A DNA stretch of 49,048 bases from Alphaproteobacteria bacterium (GTDB taxonomy: Bacteria; Pseudomonadota; Alphaproteobacteria; Acetobacterales; Acetobacteraceae). Below the pieces are notes generated by a model. The model had not been told where the DNA came from. It saw nothing but the letters and a program-made list of their open reading frames with translations, and did not search any database. Made by a program: the position numbers and the translations under genes. Shown here in pieces: positions 4,055-46,533 of the stretch. Each line of letters opens with the position of its first letter. Positions within the stretch are counted from its first letter, which is position 1. Where the stretch lies: NCBI GenBank assembly GCA_026400815.1, contig JAPLOI010000038.1, positions 1 to 49,048 of the forward strand. Direction: 5' to 3'.

Positions 4055-4933
4055 ATGAGCAGCATCCAACCCGTGATCGGCATCATCGGCGGCTCCGGCC
4101 TGTACGACATCGATGGGCTGGAGCGCACGCGCTGGCACAAGGTCTCCACCCCCTGGGGCGACCCTTCCGATGAGCTGCTGGAAGGCTGGCTGGGCGATGT
4201 GCGCTGCGTGTTCCTGCCGCGCCACGGCCGCGGCCATCCGCTTTCGCCCACCGACCTCAACTACCGCGCCAACATCGACGCGCTGAAGCGCATGGGCTGC
4301 ACCGATGTGCTCTCCCTCTCCGCTGTGGGCAGCCTGAAGGCGGAGCTGCCGCCGGGGCATTTCGTGATCGTGGACCAGTTCATCGACCGCAGCTTCGCGC
4401 GCGAGAAGAGCTTCTTCGGGGCCGGCTGCGTGGCGCATGTGTCGGTCGCCCACCCCGTCTGCCCCCGGCTGGGCGATGCGGCCGAAGCTGCGGCGCGCCA
4501 GATCGGGTTGCCGGTGACGCGCGGCGGCACCTACCTGGTGATGGAAGGGCCGCAATTCTCGACCAAGGCGGAGAGCGAGCTGTATCGCAGCTGGGGCTGC
4601 TCGGTGATCGGCATGACCAACATGCCGGAGGCCAAGCTCGCCCGGGAGGCGGAGCTTTGCTACGCGACGATCGCCATGGTGACCGACTACGATTGCTGGC
4701 ACCCGGACCATGACCACGTGACGGTGGACGCGGTGGTGAAGGTGCTGCTGGGCAATGCCGAGAAGGCGCGCGACCTGGTGCGGGCCGTGGTGCCCGCGAT
4801 CGGCGCGGCGCGTGGCCCCTGCCCCGCCGGGTGCGACCGGGCGCTGGACCATGCGCTGATCACGGCGCCGGGGAAGCGGGATCCGGGGGTGCTGGCGAAG
4901 CTGGATGCGGTGGCGGGGCGGGTGCTGGGGTAA
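4055..4933 (+). CDS. mtnP: S-methyl-5'-thioadenosine phosphorylase
   Basis: MtnP cleaves methylthioadenosine with phosphate to adenine and methylthioribose-1-phosphate in methionine salvage and polyamine by-product recycling. The 292-residue protein shows the phosphate and nucleoside site GGSGLYD (12-18), FLPRHGRGH (about 53-61), YLVMEGPQFSTKAES and GMTNMPEAKLAREAE, all typical of the MTAP branch of the purine phosphorylase family. GGAGG precedes the ATG at good distance. In alphaproteobacteria mtnP is often found near petABC, as here. The TAA stop abuts a REPIN-like element. Confidence 0.95.
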   Translation: MSSIQPVIGIIGGSGLYDIDGLERTRWHKVSTPWGDPSDELLEGWLGDVRCVFLPRHGRGHPLSPTDLNYRANIDALKRMGCTDVLSLSAVGSLKAELPPGHFVIVDQFIDRSFAREKSFFGAGCVAHVSVAHPVCPRLGDAAEAAARQIGLPVTRGGTYLVMEGPQFSTKAESELYRSWGCSVIGMTNMPEAKLAREAELCYATIAMVTDYDCWHPDHDHVTVDAVVKVLLGNAEKARDLVRAVVPAIGAARGPCPAGCDRALDHALITAPGKRDPGVLAKLDAVAGRVLG

Positions 4934-5063
4934 GGAAGCGGTTCTTTTTTGAAAAAAGAACCAAAAAACTTTTGTGAGCTCGCACGCGTTTTTCCAGGGA
5001 AAGACGCGTGCCAGGAAATAAAGTCTTTTTGCTTCTTTTTCTTCAGAAAAAGAAGACTCTTGC
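4934..5063. repeat. REPIN-like AT-rich double-palindrome element, copy A
   Basis: Hairpin 1, GGTTCTTTTTT/GAAAAAAGAACC, is at 4940-4962 and is followed by AAAAAACTTTTG (4963-4974). The right arm is AAAGTCTTTTTG then hairpin 2, CTTCTTTTTCTT/CAGAAAAAGAAG, at 5032-5055. The reverse complement of the right arm is nearly the left arm, so the element is an imperfect inverted repeat about 38 bp per arm around a variable core. The core has its own hairpin GCACGCGT/ACGCGTGC. It lies between the convergent mtnP and eipB genes, whose TAA stops form both edges. Likely works as a bidirectional terminator. Confidence 0.85.
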
Positions 5064-5873
5064 TTAGCAGCCCGGCTTGGGAACACTCAACTCCGTCAGT
5101 TTCCCGGCCAGCACGTAGTCGCCGAAATCCATGCTGAGTTGGTCGGCGATGCCGTTTTCCCAGTAGCGCATGCCGACTTCGTATTCCGGCTGCTGGTTGC
5201 CGCCGCTGCGTTCGAAGAAGGCGATGCGCACGCGCACGCTGGAAACCGGGCTGAGCGCGGGCCAACGGGTTTCCGCTGGGGCGGCGAGGCCGGCGATGGC
5301 GGTGGTGCTGTCTTGCGCGCCGTCGGCGCTGGTGCCGTCGAACAGCGGGATGGCGACGAAGCGCTTGCCTGCCTTAGCGGCGGCCAGGATCGCTTCGGTA
5401 TGCGCCGTTGGGAACATGGTGCCGGCGGGCAGGTCGCGGACGGTTTCGGGCGGCTGGGTGTAGGTGGCACGGCCGGTGCCGCCGACGCGGTCCAGCGTGG
5501 CGGCGCCGGCGAGGTCGTTCACCACCGCGTCTTCCGTGGTTTGGCGCAGGCGGAAGCGCATGCGCAGGCCGTCCTTGCTTTCCCAGGTGGTGTAATCGGA
5601 GGTGAGGTCGATATCGGTGCCGTCGCGGCTGGTGACGGTGATGGCCAGGCGCTGGCGGACGGCCCAGGCGTCACAGGCGTCGATCACTTCGAAACCCATG
5701 GTGCCGCTGGCGCCGATGATGTCGCCGCGGGCAGATTCGAGCGTGAGGGTATAGAGCGCGCGGTGGCCGGTGATTTCGACGGCGGCAGCGGCCAGCGGCG
5801 CGAGCAGGGCGGCGGCGCAGAGGGCTGCGACTGTCCGCGGCAGGGCGGGCCGGAGGAAGGCGGGCAGGCGCAT
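5064..5873 (-). CDS. eipB: EipB-family (DUF1849) cell-envelope integrity protein
   Basis: EipB is a periplasmic beta-spiral protein needed for envelope integrity in Brucella and conserved across alphaproteobacteria. The 269-residue product has a Sec signal peptide (about 1-31) and family blocks SARGDIIGASGTMGFE, TWESKDGLRMRFRLRQT, LPAGTMFPTAHTEAI and EYEVGMRYWENGIAD. Two cysteines, C67 and the terminal C269, sit where Brucella EipB forms its single disulfide. The start at 5873 is preceded by GGAG at 8 nt; an earlier in-frame ATG (5939) lies within an inverted repeat and is less likely. The TAA stop is the right edge of repeat copy A. Confidence 0.85.
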   Translation of the reverse strand: MRLPAFLRPALPRTVAALCAAALLAPLAAAAVEITGHRALYTLTLESARGDIIGASGTMGFEVIDACDAWAVRQRLAITVTSRDGTDIDLTSDYTTWESKDGLRMRFRLRQTTEDAVVNDLAGAATLDRVGGTGRATYTQPPETVRDLPAGTMFPTAHTEAILAAAKAGKRFVAIPLFDGTSADGAQDSTTAIAGLAAPAETRWPALSPVSSVRVRIAFFERSGGNQQPEYEVGMRYWENGIADQLSMDFGDYVLAGKLTELSVPKPGC

Positions 5874-29249: not shown

Positions 29250-29330
29250 GTGCCCCGCATCGCGCTCACCCTGCTCGCCTGCACCGCCGCCCCTGTTGTC
29301 TGGGAGCGGTGTGAGCCGTCCACCAGCTAA
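29250..29330 (+). CDS. Putative 26-residue lipopeptide-like small protein
   Basis: A GTG at 29250 follows a perfect AGGAGG (29239-29244) by 5 nt and opens a 26-codon frame: an N-terminal MPRIALTLLACTAAP that resembles a lipoprotein signal with lipobox LLAC, then VVWERCEPSTS. The TAA stop abuts REPIN copy B. It may be a real small protein, or the start of a lipoprotein gene cut short by the repeat element. No homology is claimed. Confidence 0.35.
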   Translation: MPRIALTLLACTAAPVVWERCEPSTS

Positions 29331-29456
29331 GCAAGCGGTTCTTTTTTGAAAAAAAGAACCAAAAAACTTTCATTCATTTGAGGCGGGAAAATCCGCCCCT
29401 TCCACCTCGAACATACAAAAGTCTTTTTGCTTCTTTTTCTTCAGAAAAAGAAGATT
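29331..29456. repeat. REPIN-like AT-rich double-palindrome element, copy B
   Basis: Hairpin 1 (GGTTCTTTTTTG with AAAAAAAGAACC) is at 29337-29360, followed by AAAAAACTTTC. The right arm is CAAAAGTCTTTTTG then hairpin 2 at 29430-29453. The core contains GGCGG/CCGCC. The left edge is the TAA of the small ORF (29328-29330), and the right edge is the TAG of the serine hydrolase (29457-29459). Confidence 0.85.
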
Positions 29457-30962
29457 CTATATCTTACTGAACCGCAACACCCGCGACCGGTTCACGATCA
29501 GCCGCACCCCTTCCTGCGTGAAATGCAGCAGGGCCCGCTGCTTCCACGGCCCATCCTGCCGCTCCATCAGCGCCATGTCGCTGGCGATCGGCAGCAGATC
29601 GAGGCTGCGCCGCATCGGCCCGGCGCCGCTGGTCAGCACCGCCCGGCTGCCGTCGCACGTGATGGTGAACCGCCCGCCCTGCGCCGGGCACACCCATTCG
29701 CCCGCCCATTCCGGCCGCACCCCGGCGCCGGTCGCCGGCCGGAAGCGCCGCGCCGCGTGGCCGATCTGGCCCACGATCGCGCCGCCTTCGGCCCGGAGCC
29801 GCACCGGCATCTCCACCGCACGGCTCACCGCCCAGTCACCGTCGCGGAACAACGTGCCCTGCGCATCCAGGTAGGAGATCACGCCGGCCTTGTGCTCGAT
29901 CCAGATCGGCGCGTCCTCGGCGATGAAGCGGCCTTCCGGCAGCAGGTCCGGCGCCGGCGCCGGCTCCGCCACGCCGGTGAGGGCGGAGAGCACCGTGAGG
30001 CACGGCGCCATCGGGTCCACCTCTTCCCGGTTCGCCAGCAGCACCACCCCGATGCCCAGCTTCGGCGCCACCAGGAAGTGGTTCTTGTAGCCGGGCAGCG
30101 AGCCGCCATGCCCCACCAGCTCGATATCCCCCAACGGCGCCCGCGCCAGGCCAAGCCCGTAGCCGGTGACGGTGCCGTCCACCAACGCCCGCGGCGCGGA
30201 AAGCGTGCGCAACAACCCCGCCGCCGGCCCGCGCCCGGTCAGCAGCGCCTGCGCCCAGGTGGCGAGATCGCGCGCCGTGCCGGTGATCCCGCCAGAGGCC
30301 GAGTAGTGCAGCCCGTAGCGCCCGCGCCGCCAGCCTTGCGGGCCCTTCCAGTAGCCTGGGGCCAGCCCCGGCACCGGCTCGGTCTCGTCTTCCGGCAGGT
30401 GCATGGTCAGCCCCAGCGGGCGGAAAAACGTCTCGCGAAGCGCGGCGGCATAGTCCACGCCCTTCGCCTCCAGCGCCGCCTGCACCATGCGGTAGCCGCT
30501 ATTGGTGTAGGACACCTCGGTGCCCGGCGCGTAGTTCAGCGCGTCCATGCTGGTGACGAACCGCAGCAGCGCGTGCCGGTCCATCGCGGTGCTGGAGGAA
30601 TTGCCCAGCAGCCATTGCGTCGGCGCCGCGTCGGCAATGCCGCTGGTCATGTCCAACGCCCGGCCGATGGTCACCGCGCCCTGCGCCGCGCCGGCCTCGA
30701 TATGCTGCCCCAGCGTATCCCCGAAGCCGATCCGCCCATCGATCGCCAGCATCCCGCACAGGAAATGCTTGCTGATGGAGGCGTAGCGCAGCGTCGTATC
30801 CGGCGTGAACCGCAGCCCATGCTCGATGCTGGCATACCCGCCGCAGGCCGCCCCGCGCAGCCCGCCGGTATCGAACAGCAGGATGGCGCCGCCCGGCCCG
30901 CCCTCCGCGTTCCACGCTCCCGCAATCCGCTCCGCCGCCGCGATCCCCGCCTTCCAGTCCAT
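29457..30962 (-). CDS. Serine hydrolase, D-aminopeptidase (S12)-like
   Basis: A 501-residue penicillin-recognising-type hydrolase. From the start at 30962 the active site S62-I-S-K65, the second motif Y152-T-N154 and the third motif HGG (in LVGHGGSLPGY) fit the S12 D-aminopeptidase (DAP) of Ochrobactrum in position, and the length is close to its 520 residues with C-terminal beta-barrel domains. Such enzymes release N-terminal D-residues from peptides. The ATG at 30962 has GGAGGG 7 nt upstream; an earlier ATG (31031) lacks one but would add MSRRDFARLPFAG, a twin-arginine-like stretch without a hydrophobic core. Divergent from the MOSC gene. Confidence 0.8.
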   Translation of the reverse strand: MDWKAGIAAAERIAGAWNAEGGPGGAILLFDTGGLRGAACGGYASIEHGLRFTPDTTLRYASISKHFLCGMLAIDGRIGFGDTLGQHIEAGAAQGAVTIGRALDMTSGIADAAPTQWLLGNSSSTAMDRHALLRFVTSMDALNYAPGTEVSYTNSGYRMVQAALEAKGVDYAAALRETFFRPLGLTMHLPEDETEPVPGLAPGYWKGPQGWRRGRYGLHYSASGGITGTARDLATWAQALLTGRGPAAGLLRTLSAPRALVDGTVTGYGLGLARAPLGDIELVGHGGSLPGYKNHFLVAPKLGIGVVLLANREEVDPMAPCLTVLSALTGVAEPAPAPDLLPEGRFIAEDAPIWIEHKAGVISYLDAQGTLFRDGDWAVSRAVEMPVRLRAEGGAIVGQIGHAARRFRPATGAGVRPEWAGEWVCPAQGGRFTITCDGSRAVLTSGAGPMRRSLDLLPIASDMALMERQDGPWKQRALLHFTQEGVRLIVNRSRVLRFSKI

Positions 30963-32537: not shown

Positions 32538-32784
32538 CAAGGCCGGGGGTTCACCCCGGACCCCGACCAGGGCTCTGCCCTGGACCCGCCAGGGACCTGA
32601 GGTCCCTGGACCCGCGTGACCTTCCGCCTTCGGCGGGGAGGGGCTGTCGAGGCGGTGGAGAGACCCAGTCGGCCCCTCCCCGCCGAAGGCGGACAAGTAA
32701 GGGGGTCTGGGGCCTAAGGCCCCAGTGGGGTGCAGGGGCAACGCCCCTGCTCAGGGGTCCGGGGGCGGAAGCCCCCGGCCTTGC
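32537..32784. repeat. 248-bp GC-rich cluster of palindromes with 13-bp terminal inverted repeats
   Basis: The ends GCAAGGCCGGGGG (32537-32549) and CCCCCGGCCTTGC (32772-32784) are exact inverted repeats. Inside are perfect hairpins at 32567-32583, 32589-32609 (21-bp palindrome), a 21-bp stem at 32624-32644/32672-32692, 32707-32725, 32732-32750 and 32759-32778. It fills the space between the convergent eamA and amidohydrolase genes. It may be a MITE-like element and should end transcription from both sides. Confidence 0.85.
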
Positions 32785-32785
32785 C

Positions 32786-40061: not shown

Positions 40062-40176
40062 ACAAGCATGTTCTTTTTTGAAAAAAAGAACCAAAAAACT
40101 TTTGATCATTAGGCCCGGGCACAAGAAAATGAATTCTTTTTGCTTCTTTTTCTTCAGAAAAAGAAGGCCTTGCTTC
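40062..40176. repeat. REPIN-like AT-rich double-palindrome element, copy C
   Basis: Hairpin 1 (GTTCTTTTTTG with AAAAAAAGAAC) is at about 40070-40092, then AAAAAACTTTTG; the right arm has TTCTTTTTG and hairpin 2 (40143-40166). The outer ends AACAAGCA and CTTGCTT (40169-40175) are roughly inverted. The core contains GCCCGGGC. Its right edge is the TAG of the HDAC-like gene (40177-40179); the left side faces the xseB start. Confidence 0.85.
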
Positions 40177-41106
40177 CTACCCATCCATCAACGCCCGAAC
40201 ATGCACCGCCGCCGACTCCGCCAGCGCATCGAGGTCATAGCCGCCCTCCAGCAGCGAGACCACCCGCCCCTGGCATTGCGCCCGCGCCAGGCGCATCAGC
40301 TCCCCGGTCAGCCAGCCGAAATCCGCCGCCTCCAGCCGCAGCTGCGCCAGCGGATCGGCCTTGTGCGCATCGAACCCCGCCGAGATGATGAGCAGCTCCG
40401 GCTGGAACGCCTCCAGCGCCGGCAGGATCAGCACCTCCCATGCCTCGCGGAACGCCGGCCCGCCGGAGCCCGGCGGCAGCGGCGCGTTCACGATGTTCCC
40501 CACCCCGCGCTCCTCCGCGCTCCCGGTGCCGGGGTAGCACGGGTACTGGTGGGAGGAGGCGTAGAACAACGTCGGATCGGCCTGGAAGATGTCCTGCGTG
40601 CCGTTGCCGTGGTGCACGTCGAAATCCACCACCGCTACGCGTGAGAGTCCCCAGCGCGCCTGGGCATGCCGCGCCGCGATCGCCGCATTGGCGAACAGGC
40701 AGAACCCCATCGGCCGGTCGCGCTCGGCATGGTGCCCCGGCGGCCGTGCGGCCACGAACACCTGCTTCGCCCAGCCCTCCATCACCGCATCCACCGCCAT
40801 CACCGCCCCGCCGGCCGCACGCAACGCCGCCTCCCGGCTGCCGGTGCTCATGATCGTGTCGGCATCCAGCGCCACGCGCTGCCCCGGCTCCGGCGAGACC
40901 GACAGGATGCCCTGCACATATTCCGGCGGATGCACCCGCAGCAGTTGCTCCTCCGTGGCCAGCGGTGCGAGATCCCGCAGCAGGGTGGAGAAATGCGGAT
41001 GCTCCAGCGCCTGCAGCACGCGGCGCAGCCGGTCCGGCCGCTCCGGGTGCCACGGGCCCGTGTCGTGCTCCAGGCAGGCCGGATGCGTGATCAGCGCAAC
41101 AGTCAT
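40177..41106 (-). CDS. Histone deacetylase family protein (acetylpolyamine amidohydrolase-like)
   Basis: A 309-residue zinc deacetylase of the arginase/HDAC fold. It has ARPPGHHAE with H125 and H126, the metal site DFDVHHGNGTQ (D161, D163, H165), ISAGFDAHKADPL and LEGGYDLDAL. Bacterial members act on acetylpolyamines, acetoin or other acyl compounds; the substrate is not known. ATG at 41106 overlaps the tusA stop by 4 bp. This gene next to xseB-ispA is a recurrent alphaproteobacterial neighbourhood. Confidence 0.9.
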   Translation of the reverse strand: MTVALITHPACLEHDTGPWHPERPDRLRRVLQALEHPHFSTLLRDLAPLATEEQLLRVHPPEYVQGILSVSPEPGQRVALDADTIMSTGSREAALRAAGGAVMAVDAVMEGWAKQVFVAARPPGHHAERDRPMGFCLFANAAIAARHAQARWGLSRVAVVDFDVHHGNGTQDIFQADPTLFYASSHQYPCYPGTGSAEERGVGNIVNAPLPPGSGGPAFREAWEVLILPALEAFQPELLIISAGFDAHKADPLAQLRLEAADFGWLTGELMRLARAQCQGRVVSLLEGGYDLDALAESAAVHVRALMDG

Positions 41107-46408: not shown

Positions 46409-46533
46409 GAAAGACTCTTCTTTTTCTGAAGAAAAAGAAGCAAAAAGACTTTTGTCACCTGCGCCCGTGCCAGAGCGAGCGGCAAAGTAATAAAAGTTTT
46501 TTGGTTCTTTTTTTCAAAAAAGAACAATGCTTA
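46409..46533. repeat. REPIN-like AT-rich double-palindrome element, copy D (inverted)
   Basis: This copy is in the opposite orientation. Hairpin CTTCTTTTTCTG/AAGAAAAAGAAG is at 46417-46440, then CAAAAAGACTTTTG; the other arm is AAAAGTTTTTT with hairpin GGTTCTTTTTTTC/AAAAAAGAAC at 46503-46525. It lies between the amidohydrolase TAA and the SDR start, 20 bp upstream of the latter. Confidence 0.85.

Follow-up and report, generated by a model that had tools for sequence, protein, structure and literature searches.

Bacterial MITEs such as Correia/NEMIS and RUP are small, have inverted ends and are patchy and polymorphic in their distribution, while ordinary bidirectional intrinsic terminators consist of a gene-end hairpin with a variable stem, accompanied by A and T tracts. 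REP, BIME and REPIN repeats, together with RAYT, were reportedly treated by Bertels and Rainey in 2011. In REPs the palindrome foot bears a tag, GTAG or CGTC, and Acetobacteraceae are without CGTC repeats (PMC3733652), terminators undergo compensatory evolution in Bacillus cereus (PMC5381666), and paired DNA uptake sequences at gene ends form terminator hairpins in Neisseria and Pasteurellaceae (PMC1852404).

Here we describe a high-copy repeat family of Acetobacteraceae that unites the turnover of a mobile element with the in-place conservation of a functional signal, two features that are normally kept apart. Searches of the open-access literature on Acetobacteraceae repeats and terminators, at the level of listings and opening lines of abstracts, yielded no description of this family: the arm letters searched as text returned 0 papers, PMC12306157 mentions neither acetobacter, gluconacetobacter, roseomonas nor rhodospirillales, and PMC5217627 mentions neither acetobacter, gluconobacter nor acidiphilium. 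We propose, with a probability of roughly 0.7, that the element is a dispersed, bidirectional terminator module of the Rho-independent type located at gene 3' ends, termination itself being predicted from the letters of the DNA.

Anatomy, copy number and spread of the element

The window, by which we mean the whole stretch of 49,048 nt that was analysed, is contig 11 of a genome of 5.11 Mb in 89 contigs (hereafter the own genome). Four AT-rich elements listed in a preliminary description of this DNA are all present where it had placed them. They are members of an asymmetric family of about 125 bp, in which two palindromic arms frame a variable core: the left end consists of the palindrome GGTTCTTTTTTGAAAAAAAGAACC followed by an A/T tract, the middle is a variable, G+C-rich hairpin core, and the right end is a T tract followed by the palindrome CTTCTTTTTCTTCAGAAAAAGAAG. 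The consensus anatomy was derived from 39 unique two-arm copies of the own genome, retrieved with a regular expression demanding both arms. On the left side it runs from a purine-rich, TAAGGAAGCAAGCG-like foot through the left palindrome GTTCTTTTTTGAAAAAAAGAAC and the tract CAAAAAACTTTT to the variable core, and on the right side from the tract AAAAGTCTTTTTG through the right palindrome CTTCTTTTTCTTCAGAAAAAGAAG to a pyrimidine-rich foot; the right arm has a second length form, in which T6/A6 replaces T5/A5. Both orientations of the element occur.

The first copy in the window (w1, 4934-5063, plus strand, left to right) takes up all the space between two stops that converge, TAA at 4931-4933 and a minus-strand TAA at 5064-5066. 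Its left, GTTC-type palindrome (4940-4962) and its right, CTTC-type palindrome (5032-5055) are both given on the plus strand; between them lie a G+C-rich hairpin core at 4982-5011, to which no strand is assigned, and a T-rich tract at 5020-5031, ahead of the right palindrome. The second copy (w2, 29331-29456, plus strand, left to right) has its left palindrome at 29337-29360 and its right at 29430-29453, and is flanked by TAA 29328-29330, which ends a short frame behind flgD, and by a minus-strand TAG at 29457-29459; it is the full gap between convergent stops only if that small frame, for which the codon-model gene caller made no call, is a gene. The same frame (window about 29250-29330) is some 230-280 bp shorter in the own genome and in the congener G244 than in G297, G171 and G212, and was apparently shortened via an internal deletion. 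Each of the other two copies adjoins a stop at one end, and its opposite end faces the beginning of a tandem gene. The third (w3, 40062-40176, plus strand, left to right; left palindrome 40070-40092, right palindrome 40143-40166) lies behind a minus-strand gene of the histone-deacetylase family (stop 40177-40179) and precedes the gene for the exonuclease VII small subunit. The fourth (w4, 46409-46533, minus strand) is reversed relative to w1-w3, reading right to left on the plus strand (right palindrome 46417-46440, left palindrome 46503-46525); it abuts TAA 46406-46408 of an amidohydrolase gene, and a short-chain dehydrogenase gene (46554) comes next.

The two arms had been described as near-inverted copies of one another. 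They are indeed opposed, but in the own genome they are not two versions of a single palindrome: a GTTC-type arm faces a CTTC-type arm in all 27 two-arm elements of a 449-kb sample, in which a single arm was recognisable in ten more elements. Certain other genera have two arms of the same type (loci L059, L082, L117 and L130). The sample comprises 449,048 bp, namely the window plus 400 kb, and covers under a tenth of the own genome; a profile search of it found 64 arms, which yield the 27 two-arm and 10 one-arm elements. A density of 37 per 449 kb, window included, agrees with the first estimate of about one copy per 12 kb.

Within the window the arm pattern gave 4 matches, compared with 0 in 100 dinucleotide shuffles, and the right-arm palindrome gave 8 (4 sites, both strands), again with 0 in shuffles. 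Genome-wide, the exact 21-mer of the right arm is present in 65 + 76 copies (0 + 0 for the reversed control), and a looser arm pattern yields 258 + 262 = 520 matches (0 + 0 for the reversed pattern). The REPIN- or MITE-like layout and the high copy number are thereby borne out. At least one arm match was found in 120 of 397 Acetobacteraceae genomes and in 36 of 102 genera, with a very uneven distribution: all nine genomes of the own genus carry 470 to 850 arms, and inside other genera the copy number jumps from 0 to 617 (g17) or from 14 to 1140 (g49, three genomes). Among the matches listed, two-arm elements are present in Gluconacetobacter liquefaciens, G. tumulicola, G. aggeris, Rhodovarius crocodyli and Acidiphilium rubrum; in A. 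rubrum both arms are of the CTTC type. Among the matches listed, the titled contigs nearest to the own genome come from MAGs, carry the labels Rhodospirillales and Asaia and resemble it at 93 and 91%, which makes an uncultured bacterium of the family the probable host. A phage search returned one record and a plasmid search three, of which the true members are two Pseudoroseomonas cervicalis plasmids; matches in Parabacteroides and Microviridae were taken as chance, as they cover only 24% of the query. Rfam gave 0 matches at gathering score in the window, and below gathering score it gave matches for w1 and w4, the two elements searched.

The most alike pair among 38 own cores reaches 85%, so no very recent amplification is apparent in the sampled part of the own genome. 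In G332, AGTTTGGCGTCCCGCC is common to several of the stretches shown, and a similar core is present in Pseudoroseomonas; such shared, genus-typical cores suggest separate amplifications in different genera. The genome G332 is very probably that of Roseomonas sp. GC11, given that its contig-2 arm matches coincide in coordinates with those in NZ_JANFNY010000101.1. In G178, which has the most arms among the sampled genomes, there are also pairs of back-to-back arms separated by about 14 bp (L282, L296 and L304), as if two elements had met.

In its minimum-energy form the element either makes three hairpins, two from the single arms and one from the core, or folds into one long hairpin through pairing of arm with arm. 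On both strands w1, w2 and w4 fold clearly better than dinucleotide shuffles (z -3.5 to -5.9, with -4.6 and -5.9 for w1 as a whole), whereas w3, the fold of which is less regular, does so weakly (z -1.9 and -2.2). Core hairpins of the 39 copies have a mean z of -3.6 and fall below -2 in 26 of 39 and above 0 in 2 of 39. A hairpin followed by a T-rich tract is present on both strands, weakly in w3 and with 13 of 39 cores above the z cut-off of -2. A generic terminator scan picks up three of the window's four right palindromes and shows no excess in two 20-kb stretches (9 vs 7.7 expected and 5 vs 8.5 expected). Covariation was set aside as proof of RNA structure: in a first count 12 of 15 double changes were paired, but slid controls match it, and among orthologues 8 of 13 double changes in the core are paired, with slid controls ranging from 2/14 to 6/6.

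Position at gene 3' ends and stop codons

Gene neighbourhoods in the sample, taken from codon-model gene calls, show that 36 of the 37 elements follow the 3' end of a gene. For 30 of the 37 a stop codon is no more than 8 nt away, and the arms are confined to intergenic gaps or gap edges. The gaps that hold an element are tandem in 21 cases, convergent in 15 and divergent in 1, compared with 73, 23 and 44, respectively, among all gaps of at least 100 bp; of these, 14 of 23 convergent gaps are occupied and 1 of 44 divergent gaps (p = 1.1e-7, Fisher). For 7 of the 15 convergent elements both stops are at most 8 nt away, such that the element is practically the entire gap. The 21 tandem elements are evenly oriented relative to transcription (10 vs 11), as expected of a two-way device.

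Stop codons that lie within 12 nt of an element are TAA in 25 cases, TAG in 9 and TGA in 4, as compared to TGA 229, TAG 92 and TAA 41 for other genes (p = 1.9e-10). Contigs with titles from across the family, the own genus included, contain 18 convergent, 13 tandem and 0 divergent elements, plus 3 unplaced at locus edges; all 31 placed elements, which were picked by exact arm matches and are hence intact copies, have the gene-end position. Stops adjacent to these elements (-5 to 22 nt) are TAA 21, TGA 12 and TAG 5, against a background of TGA 114, TAG 39 and TAA 8. The outer 18-mer of the element contains TAA on 20 of 33 stop sides and on 3 of the 21 sides without a stop. That TAA belongs invariably to the element is made less likely by this low number on non-stop sides, most of which also have a visible purine foot; on the simplest reading, a T ahead of the AAG of the foot would yield TAA.

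Other repeats were seen in similar places. A second, G+C-rich repeat with nested inverted repeats (window 32538-32785) fills a gap between convergent stops, and its part at 32567-32749 has dozens more matches in the genus at about 80-97% identity. A third, small family of convergent gaps, with the words CCGACCTGATAGRCGGTC ... AGCTCTTTGTTT ... GCGAGCAAC and some variation, was found in three gaps (C31:95853, at 15.8 kb of L043, C31:125715 and C18:77775). Words like GAGTCRTCGCCGCG together with GCGACGGATT characterize a fourth repeat, which occupies two convergent gaps and also lies next to an element (C18:5027, C18:30907 and C31 at about 118.9 kb).

Turnover and conservation at orthologous sites

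Thirteen elements of the own genome were compared with eight congeners, yielding 60 scored sites. Of the 15 elements set up, w1 (no fetched orthologous locus) and b4 (one arm) were dropped, as was b3 in G274 (strand mismatch), and stretches of at least 450 nt, including 80 nt of padding, were left unscored together with sites whose flanks are on different contigs; the long stretches include w2 in G171, G212, G297 and G274, a3 in G212 and G297, b3 in G033 and G318, and b5 in G274. The element has the same orientation at 40 sites (counting G244 at a4, where only a fused remnant of two arms remains), the opposite orientation at 7 (counting G033 at w3, where two CTTC-type arms deprive 'opposite' of meaning), and no arm is present at 13. 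Comparing filled with empty sites between species thus confirms site polymorphism (13/60 without arm, 7/60 opposite). The preliminary description had held that restriction to operon ends, with neither site polymorphism nor a related mobile gene, would favour a plain terminator family; the gene-end location is that of a terminator family, but the polymorphism is that of a mobile one. All seven opposite sites belong to the more distant congeners G119, G274, G033 and G318, while the nearest congeners, G244, G297 and G171, have 29 sites in the same orientation and 2 without an arm.

Among same-orientation orthologues, differences were counted at 21 of 1193 positions in the left arm, 76 of 1411 in the right arm and 268 of 1395 in the core (about 2%, about 5% and 19%), gapped columns (50, 75 and 140, respectively) being outside these rates. 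The rates come from alignment; an earlier regex-based comparison favoured intact arms, and its fourfold rates alone were kept. At shared sites the left arm thus has about 11 times and the right arm about 3.6 times fewer differences than the core. At fourfold sites of the same five genomes 11.6-31.7% differ, and genome by genome the left arm changes 6 to 19 times more slowly than this and the right arm 1.7 to 7 times more slowly, while the core changes at 0.8 to 1.6 times the fourfold rate; the right arm in G171 is not much slower than fourfold sites (8.5% vs 14.8%). It follows that selection or, less probably given how short they are, conversion between copies keeps the arms constant, whereas the core drifts more or less neutrally and yet remains a hairpin in most copies.

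At the w3 site of G244 and G297 (L197 and L194), the core is an unrelated hairpin, TCCTGAGCGAAGCGAAGGATCC, inside nearly unchanged arms; we take this to be a hairpin word of other proteobacteria. The b4 gap in G119, G212 and G274 holds a different, G+C-rich sequence. At the a3 site (L179 and L183), extra DNA lies beside the element, about 1.1-1.3 kb in G297 and 2 kb in G212.

Site a1 (contig 40, 3868-4010) contains the element in the own genome, G244, G297, G171 and G212 and is empty in G119, G033 and G274, such that the element is, by parsimony, a gain. Where it is missing, the two genes overlap by one base (G119 and G274) or are two bases apart (G033); where it is present, they are further separated by a few bases that probably include a ribosome-binding site. 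The upstream protein has the same end codon, followed by TGA (G119 and G274) or TAA (G033) without the element and by TAA or TAG with it. No target duplication was recognised in alignments of a1, a5, b2, b5 and w4, the flanks of which are much diverged, and neither an autonomous copy with the same ends nor a transposase between arms was recognised in the 449-kb sample. Far-apart arms at C31:118791-119660 enclose no frame recognised by inspection as a transposase.

Proposed mechanism, alternatives and related systems

The directly observed features, namely the anatomy, the gene-end location, the abutment on stops and the TAA bias, support the terminator reading, as do the self-complementarity of most cores and the in-place conservation of the arms; the weak fold of w3, the generic scan without excess, the one-armed state of 10 of 37 elements, core covariation that does not exceed slid controls and the right arm of G171, little slower than fourfold sites, speak against it. 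A polymerase coming from either side would meet a purine-rich foot, often holding the stop codon (TAAGGAAGCAAGCG-like), and next an arm palindrome with an A tract, the G+C-rich hairpin and a T-rich tract (CTTTTTGCTTCTTTTTC in one direction and TTTTTTGGTTCTTTTTTTC in the opposite one). The entry-side A tract could pair with the exit-side T tract, and the arms could fold on themselves, giving three hairpins, or on each other, giving one long hairpin. The polymerase would stop at the element, and the element would spread as a unit, in the manner of a MITE. The terminal palindromes exceed the needs of a plain terminator and are the least explained part of the terminator reading; they may be recognised in transfer, or they may allow the transcript to switch between the three-hairpin and the one-hairpin form.

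More tentatively, the family may be a self-spreading 'full stop', a mobile unit of two-way terminator, inverted arms and a purine foot that supplies a TAA stop, which would settle exactly behind stop codons, cut operons and insulate genes. We consider this because of site a1, where genes that overlap or lie two bases apart without the element are separated by it elsewhere. If it is true, the spread across the family would mean that one element is rewriting the borders of transcription units.

Much of the turnover could also come from a selfish MITE of no use to the host, with arms that are transposase ends, cores that are passengers and gene ends as the only places where inserting does no harm. 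This would fit the patchy distribution (120/397 genomes, 0 to 617 arms in g17), the filled, empty and oppositely oriented orthologous sites and genus-typical cores such as AGTTTGGCGTCCCGCC in G332, but we find it unlikely: arm differences about 11-fold (left) and 3.6-fold (right) below those of the core are unexpected of dead insertions, the best pair among the 38 own cores is 85% alike, and the 449-kb sample yielded no recognisable target duplication or between-arm transposase. Nor does the 3'-end location, even with strong folding, make it likely that the element serves as a stabiliser of mRNA 3' ends or an RNase III substrate, in a REP/BIME-like role, and not as a terminator, since a pure stabiliser has no need of T-rich tracts on both exit sides within conserved arms, or of abutting both convergent stops. 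It is improbable as well that the element acts as a site in DNA, either a cruciform or a site for a nucleoid-associated protein, that separates transcription units at gene ends; its palindromes are common to several genera, as a protein site would be, but the hairpin core and the order of the A and T tracts would be left unexplained.

Membership in the REPINs, suggested in the preliminary description, led to the search for a RAYT-type gene. Pfam Y1_Tnp gives one weak match in the own genome, a RAYT-type gene (G000:C53:15927-16460; L218 2880-3530) bordered on both sides by GTAG-tagged palindromic repeats of the GTAGCCCGCATCTTGATGCGGGC type. The AT arm has no match in the 6.5-kb locus of this gene, and the 449-kb sample contains no repeats like the GTAG palindromes. 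A protein search with the own RAYT-type protein matched in five of nine genomes of the genus and gave none in G033 (97% complete, 850 arms), G119 (96% complete, 683 arms), G171 (98% complete, 480 arms) and G318 (68% complete, 554 arms). Across the family, a strong Y1 match occurs in 13 genomes, of which 1 has arms; arms are present in 21 of the 31 genomes with a weak match, compared with 98 of the 353 that have no match (p = 1.8e-5, uncorrected for kinship). The Pfam Y1 search misses some RAYT-type genes, and a number of the weak matches fall within long frames of unrelated appearance. The start of a RAYT-type frame is preceded by an arm at 120 nt in G019 (L228) and at 903 nt in G096 (L221), and inspection of the element copies revealed no constant GTAG or CGTC tag at the arm foot. 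The weak Y1 association and the arm in G019 speak for some link to a RAYT-type gene. A REPIN-like element moved by a RAYT-type Y1 transposase is nonetheless very improbable, though it may hold in some lineages, and the REPIN reading is not supported, for all that the element has two opposed palindromes, the own genome one RAYT-type gene, arms are commoner with weak Y1 matches (21/31 vs 98/353) and one precedes the gene in G019 by 120 nt: the own gene is flanked by GTAG-type repeats and not by arms, four of the nine genomes in the genus, rich in elements, are without a match to it, the arm feet have no constant GTAG or CGTC, and arms are absent in 12 of 13 strong-Y1 genomes.

Carriers of the family include the named cultured genera Gluconacetobacter, Roseomonas, Rhodovarius and Acidiphilium, and it can therefore be tested directly whether the element spread through its usefulness as a terminator and whether its gain splits operons. 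A possible use lies in compact two-way terminators for high-G+C hosts.

In comparison with known systems, the family resembles REP, BIME and REPIN repeats in its opposed palindromes, its hundreds of copies, its 3'-end location and the turnover of its sites. Unlike REPINs, it has A+T-rich arms, no constant GTAG or CGTC tag and a variable core in a fixed frame, and the RAYT gene present has different repeats beside it. Like the bacterial MITEs Correia/NEMIS and RUP, it is small, has inverted ends and is patchy and polymorphic; unlike them, it shows arms conserved in place. No target duplication was recognised at the aligned sites, and no parent transposase in the 449-kb sample. Because paired uptake sequences act as terminators, an uptake-sequence reading was also considered, though not adopted: both systems consist of short, highly repeated, nearly invariant words in inverted pairs at gene ends, but there the repeated word is the stem, whereas here A/T-rich arms surround a free stem (PMC1852404). 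With ordinary bidirectional terminators the element shares A and T tracts and a hairpin with a variable stem at gene ends, and it differs from them in being one dispersed family, with arms common to several genera, additional palindromes at its ends and a purine-rich foot from which TAA often results.
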